Made by a program: the position numbers and the translations under genes. DNA of 35,201 bases from an uncultured Lachnospiraceae bacterium (GTDB lineage Bacteria; Bacillota; Clostridia; Lachnospirales; Lachnospiraceae): NCBI GenBank assembly GCA_947179245.1, contig CAMXBD010000019.1:1-35201 (forward strand), read 5' to 3'. The notes under the pieces were generated by a model. That model did no database searches and was not told the DNA's origin. It worked only from the letters and a program-made list of their open reading frames with translations. Below, piece by piece: positions 744 to 29,822 of this stretch; the stretch's first letter is position 1, and each line of letters opens with the position of its first letter.

Positions 744-962
744 TCAAATTTCTATCTCGCAATCCGGCTCAACTTTCTTGCAAGCCTTGAGTACCTTTTT
801 CATAACTGCTTTCTCATCGGCACCTTCTTCAAATTCTACTTTCATTTTCTGTGTCATAAAACTGACAACTGCATCTGACACACCCTCTGTCTTCTTAGCC
901 GCCTCCTGCATTTTCTCCGCACAATTTGCACAGTCCACTTCAATCTTGTAAGTTTTGTTCAT
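744..962 (-). CDS. Small heavy-metal-associated (HMA) domain protein
   Basis: This 72-residue protein is a single ferredoxin-like HMA domain, the fold of soluble metallochaperones and of the N-terminal domains of P1B-type ATPases. The metal-binding loop is VDCANCA, with C11 and C14 forming the CxxC site and an aspartate directly before the first cysteine, a form common in Zn/Cd-type HMA domains. The start at 962 is preceded by AGGAGG at good spacing. It lies downstream of the ArsR gene, with a structured 60-bp element between them, and is followed by a terminator. No P-type ATPase is present in the visible sequence, so this is either a stand-alone chaperone or part of a reduced metal cassette. 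The family is clear; the metal is inference. Confidence 0.88.
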   Translation of the reverse strand: MNKTYKIEVDCANCAEKMQEAAKKTEGVSDAVVSFMTQKMKVEFEEGADEKAVMKKVLKACKKVEPDCEIEI

Positions 963-1033
963 ACTTCCTTTCCTCCTGTTTTATTAACTTGCTTTCTCAA
1001 TCCCGAAAGAATGCATGCTTTACGCATTCTTCC

Positions 1034-1093
1034 AGACATGACATAGTTATTCTCAGGCTGTGTTCTTTACAGCCATAGAATAACTTCATGTCT
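1034..1093. repeat. 60-bp covarying hairpin element, copy A
   Basis: The plus strand begins AGACATGACATAGTT and ends AACTTCATGTCT. It folds into an outer 8-bp stem (AGACATGA/TCATGTCT), a 3-base bulge, a middle 9-bp helix (AGTTATTCT/AGAATAACT) and an apical helix (GGCTGT/ACAGCC) with a loop of about 7 bases. A second 60-bp copy lies at 28242-28301 with 47 of 60 positions identical, and the three adjacent pairs that differ in the middle helix compensate. Weaker similarity continues about 14 bases to the left (TTTAyGCATyCT). It fills the gap between the ArsR and HMA genes and starts directly after the ArsR stop. There is no T-run after the stem on the minus strand, so it is not a standard terminator. 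Its function is unknown. Confidence 0.8.
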
Positions 1094-1095
1094 TT

Positions 1096-1470
1096 TTATT
1101 CTTCTACATGCTCCATTCCCATACTGATGATCGAGCGCACATGCTCATCGTCCAGTGAATAGTAGATTGACTTACCTTCCCGCCTGAACTTCACCAGTTT
1201 GGACGTCTTGAGTATCCGCAGCTGATGACTCACGGAAGACTGGCTAAGATTCAACAATCCGGCAATGTCATTTACACAGAGTTCATGTTCAAACATGGAA
1301 TATAAAATTTTGATTCTTGTAGAATCCCCGAATACTTTAAAAAGCTCTGCCAGATCATACAAAATTTCATCATCGGGTTGCTGTTCCAACACCTGATTTA
1401 TAATTTCTTCCCGTTCTGCCTGTGAAATCTGTTCTGTCATTTCCGTCTTGTTTTTGTTTTCTCCTGCCAC
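1096..1470 (-). CDS. ArsR/SmtB-family zinc-type metal-sensing repressor
   Basis: This 124-residue winged-helix repressor belongs to the ArsR/SmtB family, which leaves its operator when metal binds. The recognition region is DIAGLLNLSQSSVSHQLRIL (about residues 68-87). The C-terminal helix carries D108-x-H110 and, 11 residues later, H121-x-x-E124, which matches the alpha-5 zinc site of SmtB (Asp, His, His, Glu) in residue type and spacing. The alpha-3 ELCV motif keeps one cysteine (C65). Together these favour zinc (or Co/Cd) sensing over arsenic. The start is a GTG at 1470 with GGAGG seven bases upstream. An inverted repeat overlapping the likely transcription start suggests autoregulation. 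The HMA gene downstream is the probable co-regulated partner. Confidence 0.93.
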   Translation of the reverse strand: MAGENKNKTEMTEQISQAEREEIINQVLEQQPDDEILYDLAELFKVFGDSTRIKILYSMFEHELCVNDIAGLLNLSQSSVSHQLRILKTSKLVKFRREGKSIYYSLDDEHVRSIISMGMEHVEE

Positions 1471-25911: not shown

Positions 25912-27300
25912 TTATTTGCTCAGGTATTCGTCAATGCCCTTCGCTGCCGCCTTACCGGCTCCCATTGCAAGAATTACGGTGGCTGCTCCTGTCACTGCAT
26001 CACCACCTGCATAGACTCCCTCTTTGGTGGTCTTGCCAAACTCTTCTTCTGCAACGATACATTTGTACTTATTTACTTCCAATCCCTTGGTGGTAGAAGA
26101 AATAAGCGGATTCGGTGATGTGCCTAAAGACATGATGACAGTGTCTACTTCCATCGTAAATTCAGAGCCTTCTATCACAACAGGGCGTCTTCTGCCGGAA
26201 GCATCGGGCTCACCCAATTCCATCCGCACACACTTAATCCCCGATACCCAGCCATTCTCATCCTCGAGAATCTCTGTCGGATTAGTCAGCAGGTCGAAAA
26301 TAATCCCTTCCTCCTTGGCGTGATGCACTTCCTCCACACGTGCAGGAAGTTCTTCCTCGCTTCTGCGGTATACGATATGTACTTCCGCACCGAGACGCAG
26401 AGCCGTTCTCGCCGCATCCATTGCCACGTTGCCGCCTCCCACGACCGCCACTTTCTTCCCTCTCATAATCGGTGTATTGGATTCCTCATCAAAAGCCTTC
26501 ATCAGATTGCTTCTGGTCAGATACTCATTGGCAGAGAATACTCCGTTTGCCTGCTCGCCGGGAATTCCCATAAACTTCGGCAGACCAGCGCCGGAACCGA
26601 TGAAAACTGCGTCAAAGCCTTCCTCCTCCAGCAGTTCATCTATCGTAACCGCCTTACCTACAACCACGTTTGTTTCGATTTTAACTCCCAAGGACATTAC
26701 ATTTTCAATCTCTTTGGCAACTACATCCTGCTTAGGAAGACGGAACTCAGGAATACCGTATACAAGTACGCCGCCCGGCTCATGAAGCGCTTCAAAAATG
26801 GTAACATCATATCCCATTTTTGCAAGATCACCCGCACAAGTCAGCCCGGAAGGACCCGAACCGATTACTGCTACTTTCTTGCCCTTCTTCTCTTTCGCAC
26901 CCTCCGGCTTCACATTATTTTCTCTCGCCCAGTCAGCTACGAAACGCTCTAATTTACCGATAGAGATCGGTTCGCCTTTAATACCTCTGATACACTTGCC
27001 CTCACACTGGCTCTCCTGCGGGCAGACACGTCCGCATACCGCCGGAAGCGCAGAGGACTCACTGATAATCTGATAAGCCGCCTCGATGTCTCCCTCTTTT
27101 ACTTTTTCAATAAATCCGGGAATGTTAATGGCTACGGGACATCCCTTGATACACTGTGCATTCTTACAGTTAATACAGCGGGATGCCTCACACATCGCCT
27201 CTTCTTTATCATAACCCAGACATACTTCCTCAAAATTCGTTGCACGTACCTTAGCGTCCTGTTCACGGACGGGTACTTTCTTTAATACATCTGTTTCCAT
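25912..27300 (-). CDS. nfnB: NfnB-type large subunit (glutamate synthase small-subunit-like oxidoreductase)
   Basis: This 462-residue iron-sulfur flavoprotein is of the GltD-like type. Eight cysteines (C42, C45, C50, C54 and C89, C93, C99, C103) supply two [4Fe-4S] clusters. They are followed by an FAD motif, VAVIGSGPSGLTCAGDLAKM, and an NADP motif, KVAVVGGGNVAMDAARTALR. Paired with the adjacent FAD/NAD-binding subunit it matches the NADH-dependent ferredoxin:NADP+ oxidoreductase NfnAB, which balances ferredoxin, NADH and NADPH by electron bifurcation in anaerobes. A stand-alone glutamate synthase small subunit is less likely, since no large glutamate synthase is present. Its ATG overlaps the nfnA stop by one base (TAATG). 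Confidence 0.92.
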   Translation of the reverse strand: METDVLKKVPVREQDAKVRATNFEEVCLGYDKEEAMCEASRCINCKNAQCIKGCPVAINIPGFIEKVKEGDIEAAYQIISESSALPAVCGRVCPQESQCEGKCIRGIKGEPISIGKLERFVADWARENNVKPEGAKEKKGKKVAVIGSGPSGLTCAGDLAKMGYDVTIFEALHEPGGVLVYGIPEFRLPKQDVVAKEIENVMSLGVKIETNVVVGKAVTIDELLEEEGFDAVFIGSGAGLPKFMGIPGEQANGVFSANEYLTRSNLMKAFDEESNTPIMRGKKVAVVGGGNVAMDAARTALRLGAEVHIVYRRSEEELPARVEEVHHAKEEGIIFDLLTNPTEILEDENGWVSGIKCVRMELGEPDASGRRRPVVIEGSEFTMEVDTVIMSLGTSPNPLISSTTKGLEVNKYKCIVAEEEFGKTTKEGVYAGGDAVTGAATVILAMGAGKAAAKGIDEYLSK

Positions 27301-28190
27301 TAGTCATTACCTCCGCAATTTCCGCATCCGCCGTGATGGGTATTTCCCTCCTGCGCTTTTAAGAATGCTCTTCCCTCTTTAGTCTTATAAATCTGCTGAC
27401 GTTTCATCGCCTGATCAAAATCCACTTTATGACCGTCAAATTCAGGACCGTCCACACATGCAAATTTCACTTCTCCGTCTACCGTCAGACGACAGGCACC
27501 ACACATACCCGTACCATCAACCATGATGGGATTCATGCTGACAATAGTCGGCAGATCATACTTCTTTGTTGTCAGGCACACAAATTTCATCATAATCATC
27601 GGACCGATAGCAACGCAAACATCATAGCTCTTACCTTCTTCGGTAATCAAATCATCGATTACTTTCGTAACCATGCCGCTTCGTCCATAGGAACCGTCGT
27701 CCGTCGTAACATAAAGATTTCCTGCTACAGCTTTCATCTCCTCTTCCATGATCAGCAGCTCCTTCGTCTTGGCTCCCACGATCACATCTGCATCGATACC
27801 ATGCTCATGCAGCCATTTCACCTGCGGATAAACCGGCGCTGTGCCCAGACCGCCTGCCACAAAAAGAATTTTCTTTGTACGGAGGCTTTCTATCTCTTCA
27901 TTTACAAACTCAGAAGGACATCCAAGCGGTCCGACAAAATCATGAAAACTATCGCCGGTCTTTAAATTTCTCATCATCTCTGTTGCTGCACCTACCACCT
28001 GCAACACGATCGTAATAGTACCTGCCGTTCTGTCATAATCACAAATGGTCAATGGAATACGCTCTCCATCCTCATCCATTCTTACAATAACAAACTGTCC
28101 CGGCTGACAGGATTTTGCGACCCTCGGGGCCTCAACATCCATCAGGTAGATGTTCGTTGTAAGTTCTTCAGCTTTTAATATCTTGTACAT
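27300..28190 (-). CDS. nfnA: NfnA-type FAD/[2Fe-2S] subunit
   Basis: This 296-residue ferredoxin-NADP reductase-like protein is often annotated as sulfide/dihydroorotate dehydrogenase-like. It shows the FAD-binding RIPLTICDYDR, the NAD-binding ILFVAGGLGTAPVYPQVKWL, and a C-terminal cluster motif, GMCGACRLTVDGEVKFACVD. With NfnB it forms the bifurcating transhydrogenase; this subunit is the NADH/FAD side. It ends in an extra HHGGCGNCGG tail with a possible additional metal site. The start at 28190, beginning MYKILKAEEL, is chosen because AGGAGG lies 12 bases upstream and the domain starts there; longer readings would run through the hairpin element. Confidence 0.9.
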   Translation of the reverse strand: MYKILKAEELTTNIYLMDVEAPRVAKSCQPGQFVIVRMDEDGERIPLTICDYDRTAGTITIVLQVVGAATEMMRNLKTGDSFHDFVGPLGCPSEFVNEEIESLRTKKILFVAGGLGTAPVYPQVKWLHEHGIDADVIVGAKTKELLIMEEEMKAVAGNLYVTTDDGSYGRSGMVTKVIDDLITEEGKSYDVCVAIGPMIMMKFVCLTTKKYDLPTIVSMNPIMVDGTGMCGACRLTVDGEVKFACVDGPEFDGHKVDFDQAMKRQQIYKTKEGRAFLKAQEGNTHHGGCGNCGGND

Positions 28191-28241
28191 ATCGCTACTT
28201 ATCCTCCTAACCTGATATCCCTGAATATTTATGCATCCTAT

Positions 28242-28301
28242 AGACATGACATAGTTGCACTGAGACTGTGTTTTTGATAGCCTTAGTGCAACTTCAAGTC
28301 T
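28242..28301. repeat. 60-bp covarying hairpin element, copy B
   Basis: This is the second copy of the element at 1034-1093, in the same orientation. AGACATGACATAGTT is identical, and the middle helix is AGTTGCACT/AGTGCAACT instead of AGTTATTCT/AGAATAACT, so three consecutive base pairs are exchanged together (A-T to G-C, T-A to C-G, T-A to A-T). The outer stem has one mismatch and the apical helix one mismatch plus a wobble. It lies in the nfnA leader, directly downstream of a candidate promoter, and the predicted transcript start falls a few bases inside its outer stem. Confidence 0.8.
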
Positions 28302-28302
28302 T

Positions 28303-28331
28303 ATCATATAGGAACTTCCCTGTTTTTGCAA
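28303..28331 (-). promoter_or_regulatory. Candidate nfnA promoter
   Basis: The minus strand shows TTGCAA (28326-28331), a 17-base spacer and TATGAT (28303-28308). Transcription would begin around 28296, at the edge of the hairpin element. This gives a leader of about 105 bases with the AGGAGG ribosome binding site at its end. Confidence 0.55.
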
Positions 28332-28370
28332 CTCTTTTTATTCAATGTCAAAAGATACCTGTTACTGATT

Positions 28371-29822
28371 CTATATGATAACAGCCACAAATTCGCCGTT
28401 TTCATCATATCCGAGCTGCGCCGCCTCACCTGTATGTATCTGGATCAGAAAAACCTTATCGGTACGGCTCAACATACCGGTTCCATCATCATAATACTCA
28501 TAAATCGTGTAGTAATCGTCCGCATATCCGATTCTTAATACCGAGCTGAATTGATAACTCAGCGTGCCGCTCTGCCGTTTGTTGTGTCCGGCAGCGTCTT
28601 CCAGATATCCTGTCTCAACCAGCCGTTCTACCAGATTGTTTACCGCCTGAGTTGTCGGAATAGCGTCTCTGAGAGTCAGCGTATACGTTCTCATAGTCAC
28701 TTCGCTGGGAACACCTTCTTCACTGATATTGACAAACTTAAACAGCGTTTTTCCAAGAGGCATAGGAATCGGCCCCGTGTAGGGTACGCTATCCTGCGTC
28801 GGCTCAGATTCATCGGTCGTGTAATAGATCTTACATCCTTCTACCCCTTCTACTGAGATCATCGTCGGTTCCGTATACTCTCCACTGTATAAATCTACTT
28901 CCGGCGCATTCGGCACAGACAAGTTGATAATATATGTCTTACTGACAATTTCGCTCTCTATACCATAATCATTTACAAAAAAAGCACTGATCGTATATTC
29001 TCCTGCCTCAAGGAAGAGAGGTGCAGTATATATTTCACTATTTTTAGTCGGTTTGCTCCCATCGGTCGTATAATAAATCGTTCCCGCAGTATTAGAGCTG
29101 AGTTTTAACGGAATCACTTCCGCATAACTTCCCTCGACGTAACTAAATTCCGGTTCCATGGCAAGATAACTCTGAAACATATTCACAATACCGGTCTCCG
29201 GACAATTCCTCAGCAGCTCATTGATCTGTCCATACAGACCCTGATTGGCATAGATTGTTATGATCTTATTGTAAGCTTCTTCCAAATCTTCATAGGAAAA
29301 ATTTCCTCTGTCTATAATCCGGTACAAAACATTGACCGCCGAATCATTATCCTGTTGTAAATAGTAATAATCCGCTTCCAGAAAAAGCAGTTTCGCCTCG
29401 TCGGGATAGCTTTGATAGGCTGCTTCCAGACAGGCTATCGCCTCATCGTAAGACTCATTTGCAGCATATTCTTTAGCCTTTGTAATCTGATACTCCACCG
29501 TTCTGATATGATAAGCATATGTGCCGTAAGTAACTAACGCCACAACAAAAATAACGACAAGACTTACCATCAGCCATATCTTTTTACCTTCATCGGCCGG
29601 GTAAGCCGCTCCCTCTACATCCTCCTCTTCTGCCTTTTCTTCTGTCTGTGATATCTCCTGAGTGTCTTCCCCTTCCTGCATCGCTGCAAGTGTGGATAAA
29701 GTTTCCGTTATGCTGTTTTCTATTTCCGGTTCAAAGTCTGGCACAATCTGAATCTCTTCTCCGCATTTCTCGCAAATCAGATGTCCTTCCATCAACTCGT
29801 TACCACAATGGGGGCACTTCAT
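28371..29822 (-). CDS. Zinc-ribbon, TPR and chitobiase-like-domain membrane protein
   Basis: This 483-residue protein begins with a zinc ribbon (C3-P-H-C6, C17-E-K-C20), then an acidic linker and one membrane helix (about 82-104). Next are TPR-like helices (about 111-200, with AANESYDEAIACLEAAYQSY). Two copies of a chitobiase/beta-hexosaminidase C-terminal-type beta-sandwich follow: AGTIYYTTDGSKPTKNSEIY (about 250) and GCKIYYTTDESEPTQDSVPY (about 335), and a C-terminal domain ends the protein. The zinc ribbon should be inside the cell and the repeats outside. The function is unknown; the beta domains are often found in cell-surface proteins. The ATG at 29822 has AAAGGG before it, and the gene follows folD by 34 bases. 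Confidence 0.9.
   Translation of the reverse strand: MKCPHCGNELMEGHLICEKCGEEIQIVPDFEPEIENSITETLSTLAAMQEGEDTQEISQTEEKAEEEDVEGAAYPADEGKKIWLMVSLVVIFVVALVTYGTYAYHIRTVEYQITKAKEYAANESYDEAIACLEAAYQSYPDEAKLLFLEADYYYLQQDNDSAVNVLYRIIDRGNFSYEDLEEAYNKIITIYANQGLYGQINELLRNCPETGIVNMFQSYLAMEPEFSYVEGSYAEVIPLKLSSNTAGTIYYTTDGSKPTKNSEIYTAPLFLEAGEYTISAFFVNDYGIESEIVSKTYIINLSVPNAPEVDLYSGEYTEPTMISVEGVEGCKIYYTTDESEPTQDSVPYTGPIPMPLGKTLFKFVNISEEGVPSEVTMRTYTLTLRDAIPTTQAVNNLVERLVETGYLEDAAGHNKRQSGTLSYQFSSVLRIGYADDYYTIYEYYDDGTGMLSRTDKVFLIQIHTGEAAQLGYDENGEFVAVII

Follow-up and report, generated by a model that had tools for sequence, protein, structure and literature searches.

A large family of 60-nucleotide palindromic repeats in gut Lachnospiraceae, often placed directly after stop codons or promoter -10 boxes

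The window analysed here comprises the whole of contig 19 (35,201 nucleotides) of an uncultured Lachnospiraceae bacterium, the genome of which (G000) is a 3.4 Mb MAG in 233 contigs. It contains two copies of a 60-nt hairpin, for both of which the strand of the family consensus is the minus strand, with the neighbouring genes running in the same direction. Copy 1 (1034..1093; 83.9 bits with the covariance model R2 introduced below) is located 3' of the stop codon of an ArsR-family regulator gene (1096..1470, PF01022), and the TAA stop of this gene together with two A forms a TAANA arrangement (1094..1098) before the element. It is directly followed by a second hairpin (GGAAGAATGC..GCATTCTTTC, 1005..1033) and then by an RBS-like sequence and start codon (960..980) of the next gene in the same direction, the protein of which begins MNKTYKIEVDCANCAEKM and was judged by eye to be heavy-metal-binding. 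Copy 2 (28242..28301; 71.3 bits) is a lineage-specific insertion that begins one base after the -10 box of a promoter-like sequence, TTGCAA-17-TATGAT (28303..28331), which is conserved among the aligned relatives. The upstream gene (28371..29822) ends, with its stop codon, 69 nt before this copy, and downstream of it follow a gene with DHODB Fe-S and NAD-binding domains (27300..28190) and a Fer4_20/Pyr_redox gene, which probably form an NfnAB-like pair. All of these features lie on the minus strand, and the two copies differ in the type of site they occupy, the first standing after a stop codon and the second after a -10 box.

A sequence-only reading of the window had drawn attention to this pair of hairpins, and its coordinates are right: the copies align gap-free with 47 of 60 columns identical, and their alignment bears out three consecutive compensated pairs in the middle helix (ATT/AAT to GCA/TGC). 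The 15-mer AGACATGACATAGTT, allowing up to two mismatches, occurs in exactly two places, which are the two copies, with 0.08 expected. Compared with dinucleotide shuffles, the folds reach z-scores of -7.0 and -4.9 on the minus strand, and the plus strand behaves similarly. A terminator scan yields nothing in 800-1500 and two sites in 27900-28500, neither of which overlaps copy 2. The similarity that was said to extend about 14 bases further left falls outside the repeat; at copy 1 these bases belong to the second hairpin (GAAGAATGC..GCATTC), and at copy 2 they are leader sequence, a version of which is present in relatives without the element.

Both hairpins are members of an extensive repeat family of gut Lachnospiraceae, made up of 60-letter palindromes. 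The covariance-model search that the earlier reading had proposed yields many further copies with strong covariation. A model of the two window copies (R1) finds 22 distinct places in the genome itself (E<0.001), scattered over many contigs, and a model of 21 own-genome copies (R2) gives at least one match at E<=0.01 in 73 of the 77 genomes searched within the genus, where match numbers count both strands of the palindrome and at most 71 candidates were scored per genome; the four genomes without a match are G013, G017, G028 and G075. At E<=1e-5, with 27 candidates scored per genome, R2 matches 5 genomes in a draw of 196 from the order, all five within the family: the own genome, one more of the genus (2 in the draw) and 3 of 20 other family members. 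No match was found at this threshold in the 174 sampled genomes beyond the family, the outside-family status of 171 unlisted genomes having been read from list order. The core pattern CTAAGG N15 CCTAAG N5 CTAAGT matches at least 116 stretches in named genomes, most of them labelled Lachnospiraceae or its genera. Among the matches listed, carriers include Parablautia muri, Parablautia intestinalis, Acetatifactor muris and Eisenbergiella, some are labelled only Clostridia or Bacillota, and a few bear other labels, such as a Clostridiaceae MAG and a Muribaculaceae MAG (L170). The exact outer-arm pattern was present in the own genome only when 60 relatives were searched. No match was obtained with one consensus-like copy against phages and plasmids (blastn), with the core pattern in viral contigs, or for the element in Rfam 15 at the gathering score over the window and 14 further loci, where the two matches by E-value are at chance level; open-licence PMC texts yielded no description of the hairpin family. 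A NiCo riboswitch lies at L058:260-345 (Rfam RF02683, 71.8 bits).

The copies compared in the following are the 210 that were fetched and are not a random sample; 6 of 216 were removed as duplicates. Second-strand matches, overlapping-locus repeats (L053, L210/L215) and one cut-off match each in L120 and L168 were taken out by hand, and L047, L054, L225 and a weak C180 match are not included. The length is 60 nt in 177 of the 210 copies (range 55-74), and pair counts are based on N-free copies of exactly 60 nt (159 distinct 60-mers), the 33 copies of other lengths being excluded. Columns 1-8 pair with 53-60, with the pairing kept while the sequence varies (no base exceeds 65% in any of columns 1-7 among 96 copies), columns 9-17 pair with 41-49, and columns 20-25 with 33-38. 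A bulge at columns 50-52 reads AAG in 119 and AAG, ATG, AAA or ATA in 155 of the 159 distinct 60-mers, and an internal mismatch, columns 18-19 opposite 39-40, is AA/TA in 133 of them. The loop is A-rich with AC at its end, most commonly AAAGTAC, AAAGGAC or AAAGAAC, and CTAAG occurs three times in the consensus, which places a TAA in every reading frame (ends 19, 41, 51). In L085, L104, L113, L114 and L126, variants of 57-59 nt carry a fourth CTAAG-like box on the 5' arm, which makes them nearly symmetrical. In the 21 own-genome copies, 94.8% of 483 cells are paired and double changes are found at 17 of the 23 pairs; in a shuffle test on these copies, the observed value was reached by 0 of 500 shuffles in four of five measures and by 10 of 500 in the fifth.

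In 96 of 113 copies the element is followed, starting within 4 nt, by a second hairpin that has a perfect stem of 6 bp or more, and given how often this happens, the unit may be larger than 60 nt. A T-run (at least five T in eight) comes after this second hairpin in 4 of the 96 cases; on this count, and on the scan of 800-1500 described above, an intrinsic terminator was rejected as an explanation. A third conserved module (TTGTTTGTGCCGCC..GGCGGCATG..GGAAGTGTGAA) is found, in several named genomes, 3' of the second hairpin in L094, L099, L109, L056, L073 and L088, and with it the repeats may be composites of about 150 nt.

The placement of the copies was assessed with simple ORF calls around each of them. 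Both flanking genes run in the direction of the element in 159 of the 210 copies, only the upstream one in 21, only the downstream one in 5 and neither in 2, and in the remaining 23 copies one side has no gene found or, once, the copy was scored inside an ORF. The bias of both flanks sense (159) versus both antisense (2) has a p of about 1e-44, and among the placement biases with respect to gene direction only this orientation bias is strong. Neighbours in the own genome are co-directional with the element downstream in 21 of 22 cases, upstream in 20 of the 21 found and on both sides in 19 of 21. The proposition that copies lie between co-directional genes beyond chance was dropped because background gene pairs in the named loci are themselves co-directional in 189 of 245 cases. 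Elements are found in several regions, namely those of SBP-permease, S8-L6, S7-fusA, atpD and carAB (non-Pfam names assigned by eye). In a row of solute-binding-protein genes in G026 (L171:256-8489), three long genes are each followed by an element, one more element lies just upstream of them, and the ORFs, at 802-894 aa, are unusually long for SBPs.

With respect to the upstream gene, the stop codon lies 0-3 nt before the element in 97 of 208 copies and within -9 to +3 in 121; it is supplied by the element itself, inside which it lies, in 46, and in 41 it is absent or lies at a greater distance. A spacing of 2 nt is the most frequent; there the stop is TAA in 44 of 49 copies, compared with 388 of 804 for the other ORFs (p about 3e-9), and TAANA is present in 43 of these 49. 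Base -1 is A in 195 of the 208 copies. AAnA stands directly before 94 of them, including 23 of the 41 that have no near stop, compared with a background of 3.3% at 8-49 nt further upstream. Exact AAnA is absent in 114 copies, and the exact longer form [AT]nAAnA is found before 70 and absent in 138; the A-rich AAnA-like motif is a preference and not a rule. In the 40 copies far from a stop, a -10 box ends exactly 1 nt before the element in 8, with the 11 other offsets totalling 2. Copy 2 of the window, in which TTGCAA-17-TATGAT is followed by A and then the element, is one of these eight sigma-70-like promoter cases.

Individual sites were compared across orthologous loci. At the locus of copy 2, R2 finds the element in 1 of 30 orthologous loci fetched, that of G000, and removal of the 60 nt restores the arrangement of the relatives, as for a clean insertion. 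No target-site duplication is evident there, in what is a single empty-site comparison with diverged relatives. In G065 and G026 (L260, L265), the position that copy 2 occupies in G000 is taken, in the leader of the NfnA-like gene, by another palindrome (..GAACAGGGTTCTGAACAG..), which may represent a separate hairpin family. At the arsR site of copy 1 the element is present in 7 of 20 orthologous loci fetched. The 60-mers of G067 and G070 at this site differ at 25 of 60 positions, with 11 of 300 differing upstream and 5 of 100 downstream, including the second hairpin, and the boundary of the difference falls inside the stop codon (TA/A vs TA/G). Elsewhere in G067, before a gene read by eye as carB, lies a copy with 55/60 identity. 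Judged by sequence, the difference between G067 and G070 looks like a precise cassette replacement, which may have run in either direction.

Further loci extend this picture. The genome Mgla_MAG_3-bin_26 has identical 60-mers at four separate sites (L073, L082, L102, L151), followed by different second hairpins in three and by none in one, with some upstream similarity between L102 and L151. Between S7 and fusA, where 29 of 30 loci are readable, the element is intact in 2 and diverged, as found by R2, in 3 more, one of which has a tandem pair; there are in addition one decayed form recognised by eye and one outer-stem relic, and in 16 loci the two genes lie no more than 27-29 nt apart. Identification of the relics at S7 and arsR and of the L197 form, which R2 missed, was by eye. 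In L005, L030, L038, L145 and L171 the first 10-12 nt or so of the element are repeated just upstream (e.g. AAGACATGAAG-AAGACATGAAG), and these repeats of the 5' edge may mark insertions into an older copy. The comparison of G000 with G012 covered five orthologous copies, with flank identities of 77-94%: the S7 copy is nearly unchanged, one has few changes, L016/L219 are too different to align well, and L004/L211 and L011/L222 have several compensated pairs each.

The reading to which we lean, with confidence a little better than even, is that the element is a non-autonomous mobile hairpin of the REP/MITE-like kind, which is placed in a fixed orientation after an A-rich motif and then acts as a UTR hairpin. 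A short mobile REP/MITE-like palindrome was one of three candidates of the sequence-only reading and fares best of them, although a transposase recognising its ends was not found in the one family searched. The copied unit would be the 60-nt imperfect palindrome. A putative trans-acting enzyme would recognise the folded single strand through its bulge, CTAAG boxes and loop, and would join the hairpin in one orientation 3' of the A-rich AAnA-like motif without obvious target duplication. Tolerable sites in a gene-dense genome would largely be TAA stops followed by NA, and -10 boxes (TATNATA), so that copies would come to lie at cistron ends and transcription starts in the sense direction. A resident copy could be replaced, precisely, by another family member. 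The folded single-stranded DNA would be the substrate of movement and the RNA hairpin its consequence. The starting points of the mobile-hairpin reading are observations on the family, its fold, covariation and near-fixed length, on orientation and positions, on presence and absence at orthologous loci, on identical copies at separate sites and on one replacement; what we infer from these is that an enzyme and a single-stranded intermediate exist, that the target rule causes the positions, and that the RNA has an effect. Against it stand the lack of a recognised mobility gene among the 22 largest clusters of flanking proteins, the lack of any observed intermediate of excision or transposition, a target motif that is a tendency only, and an excess of G-U pairs in the outer stem, which points to a constraint acting on the RNA, and the shared copies of G000 and G012 with compensated changes fit selection at the site as well. 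A second formulation is offered tentatively and is on balance doubtful: a non-Y1 enzyme with an AAnA-like target, used in one orientation, would treat a bare 60-nt hairpin as an exact cassette, copying, inserting and exchanging it, and would thereby place a protective RNA hairpin at cistron ends and transcription starts. If this were true, the element would be a dispersible module tuning mRNA ends across operons.

A rather unlikely alternative is that the hairpin is a cis-acting intercistronic RNA element, a stabiliser or processing signal of the SRPS type, selected operon by operon and dispersed by ordinary duplication and recombination. The sense orientation and the positions between genes agree with it, as do the orthologous copies with compensated changes, and two reports place clostridial SRPS stem-loops and internal terminators in operons for ATP synthase, ABC transporters and ribosomal proteins (PMC8219983, PMC9045158). 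Pair counts bear on it in both directions. Across all 23 pairs of the 159 distinct 60-mers, G-U and A-C are about equally frequent (52 vs 57 of 3657 cells), whereas G-U prevails in the outer stem (18 vs 5) and also, by 28 vs 8, among constrained pairs that were picked once the table was known; 42 of the 57 A-C cells fall on the five pairs 13-45, 14-44, 22-36, 23-35 and 25-33. The second hairpin has 17 G-U vs 33 A-C (182 hairpins). Terminator controls give 12 vs 4 with strong T-runs (n=21), 3 vs 3 with weaker ones (n=15) and 7 vs 5 in a first, differently cut set (n=16), and tRNAs contribute only 2; these controls are small and non-uniform, and they do not differ significantly from the element (p 0.06). 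A simple verdict of DNA and not RNA was dropped, because most A-C cells lie in five pairs and the outer stem is rich in G-U. The sense orientation and the outer-stem excess of G-U over A-C favour a role as sense RNA, whereas the counts over the whole hairpin and the second hairpin do not, and RNA and single-stranded DNA are both kept as candidates. A directional target motif would by itself, with no function of the RNA, lead to an identical orientation bias. The identical 60-mers at separate sites, the lineage-specific clean insertion of 60 nt at a promoter, and the A-rich motif before copies that have no near stop speak against this alternative of a cis-acting RNA element.

Less probable again is a true REP or IS200/IS605 type element moved by a RAYT/TnpA-REP (Y1 HUH) transposase. 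The element has the bulged imperfect palindrome, extragenic location, fixed orientation and lack of obvious target duplication that such an origin would lead one to expect, and REP recognition in E. coli is reported to require an imperfect palindrome with a bulge (PMC8266576). Within the genus, 29 of 77 genomes have Y1_Tnp (PF01797), and three of these have many copies of the element (G022, which has 16 PF01797 matches, G069 and G070). However, PF01797 has no match in the own genome or in eight other high-copy genomes (G012, G026, G064, G065, G067, G073, G090 and G091), most of them incomplete assemblies. The flanking bases, with A at -1 in 105 of 114 copies and a GGAAGAA-like sequence downstream, contain no GTAG/CGTC tag, and the length of 60 nt exceeds the 20-40 nt of REPs. 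The 365 flanking proteins form 215 clusters; the 22 largest consist of transporter, ribosomal, metabolic and other proteins, and no mobility gene was recognised among them by eye.

Covariation was initially read as the signature of selection for a fold. The covariation is strong, as claimed, but replacement of whole 60-mers and the arm-correction-like change in L222 mean that by itself it is no proof of such selection; at least three sources are possible, namely fold selection, exchange between family members, and arm correction. In its extreme form, the last of these holds that the fold is not selected at all and that quasipalindrome template switching, a mechanism known in E. coli (PMC7202029), corrects one arm to the other and so creates the covariation. 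A perfect palindrome at L222:1501-1557, at the site orthologous to L011, no longer has the bulge or the internal mismatch and looks like a natural quasipalindrome correction, a candidate of the kind that template switching predicts. As a general explanation this is very improbable, as correction should erase the bulge and the internal loop, and yet 155 and 133 of the 159 distinct 60-mers, respectively, keep them. An attC-like recombination site marking gene cassettes is hardly credible, for although the element is a bulged hairpin of about 60 nt directly after ORF stops in one orientation, attC sites have conserved R boxes at their outer arms where columns 1-7 of the element have no fixed box, copies lie in core operons such as S7-fusA, and filled and empty sites differ by the hairpin, with or without the second one, and not by a gene, which largely refutes it.

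Short palindromic repeats are common in bacteria, and their function and movement remain open questions; outside REPtrons we know of few with a known mover. In the present family the positions peak sharply at TAA + 2 and -10 + 1, one empty site is exact, one difference between relatives spans a whole cassette, and copies lie in core operons. With these, two questions become testable: what moves a 60-nt hairpin, and what happens to transcript ratios when a standard hairpin arises behind a stop codon or at the start of transcription. The family carries a warning too, in that covariation among dispersed repeats can arise from cassette exchange and arm correction.

Among known systems, the ends of IS200/IS605 elements are inserted in an oriented manner 3' of a short motif without target duplication, with a folded single strand as the substrate. 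The element described here is proposed to be oriented likewise 3' of a short motif as a folded single strand, but the whole of it is a single hairpin and its own genome has no TnpA/Y1 gene (PF01797). Like MITEs it is short, non-autonomous, palindromic and of high copy number, but no target-site duplication is evident at the one site compared and no parent transposon was found. REP sequences are described as small extragenic palindromes in high copy number, which lie mostly downstream of coding regions, are in many cases plausibly transcribed (PMC3733652) and are sometimes bulged (PMC8266576). The element is also extragenic (1 of 210 copies scored inside an ORF), bulged, palindromic and of high copy number, and the upstream gene ends towards it in the 159 and 21 copies of the two classes with a sense upstream gene. 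It differs from REPs in its length and missing tag, in that most carriers have no matching Y1 where REPs have their RAYT/Y1 partner, and in being one-oriented at stop codons and -10 boxes with few convergent sites. The SRPS stem-loops and internal terminators of Clostridia are described at cistron 3' ends and in ABC transporter, ATP synthase and ribosomal operons (PMC4423207, PMC8219983, PMC9045158), and the element is likewise a stem-loop at cistron 3' ends in operons, the latter judged from gene direction and spacing. SRPS are described by position and free energy, whereas the element is a homologous dispersed family of near-fixed length with conserved boxes, and it occurs at promoters as well. 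Taken together, the element departs from REPs in size, tag and transposase and has no match in Rfam, and functionally it is close to REP sequences and to the clostridial SRPS stem-loops and internal terminators.
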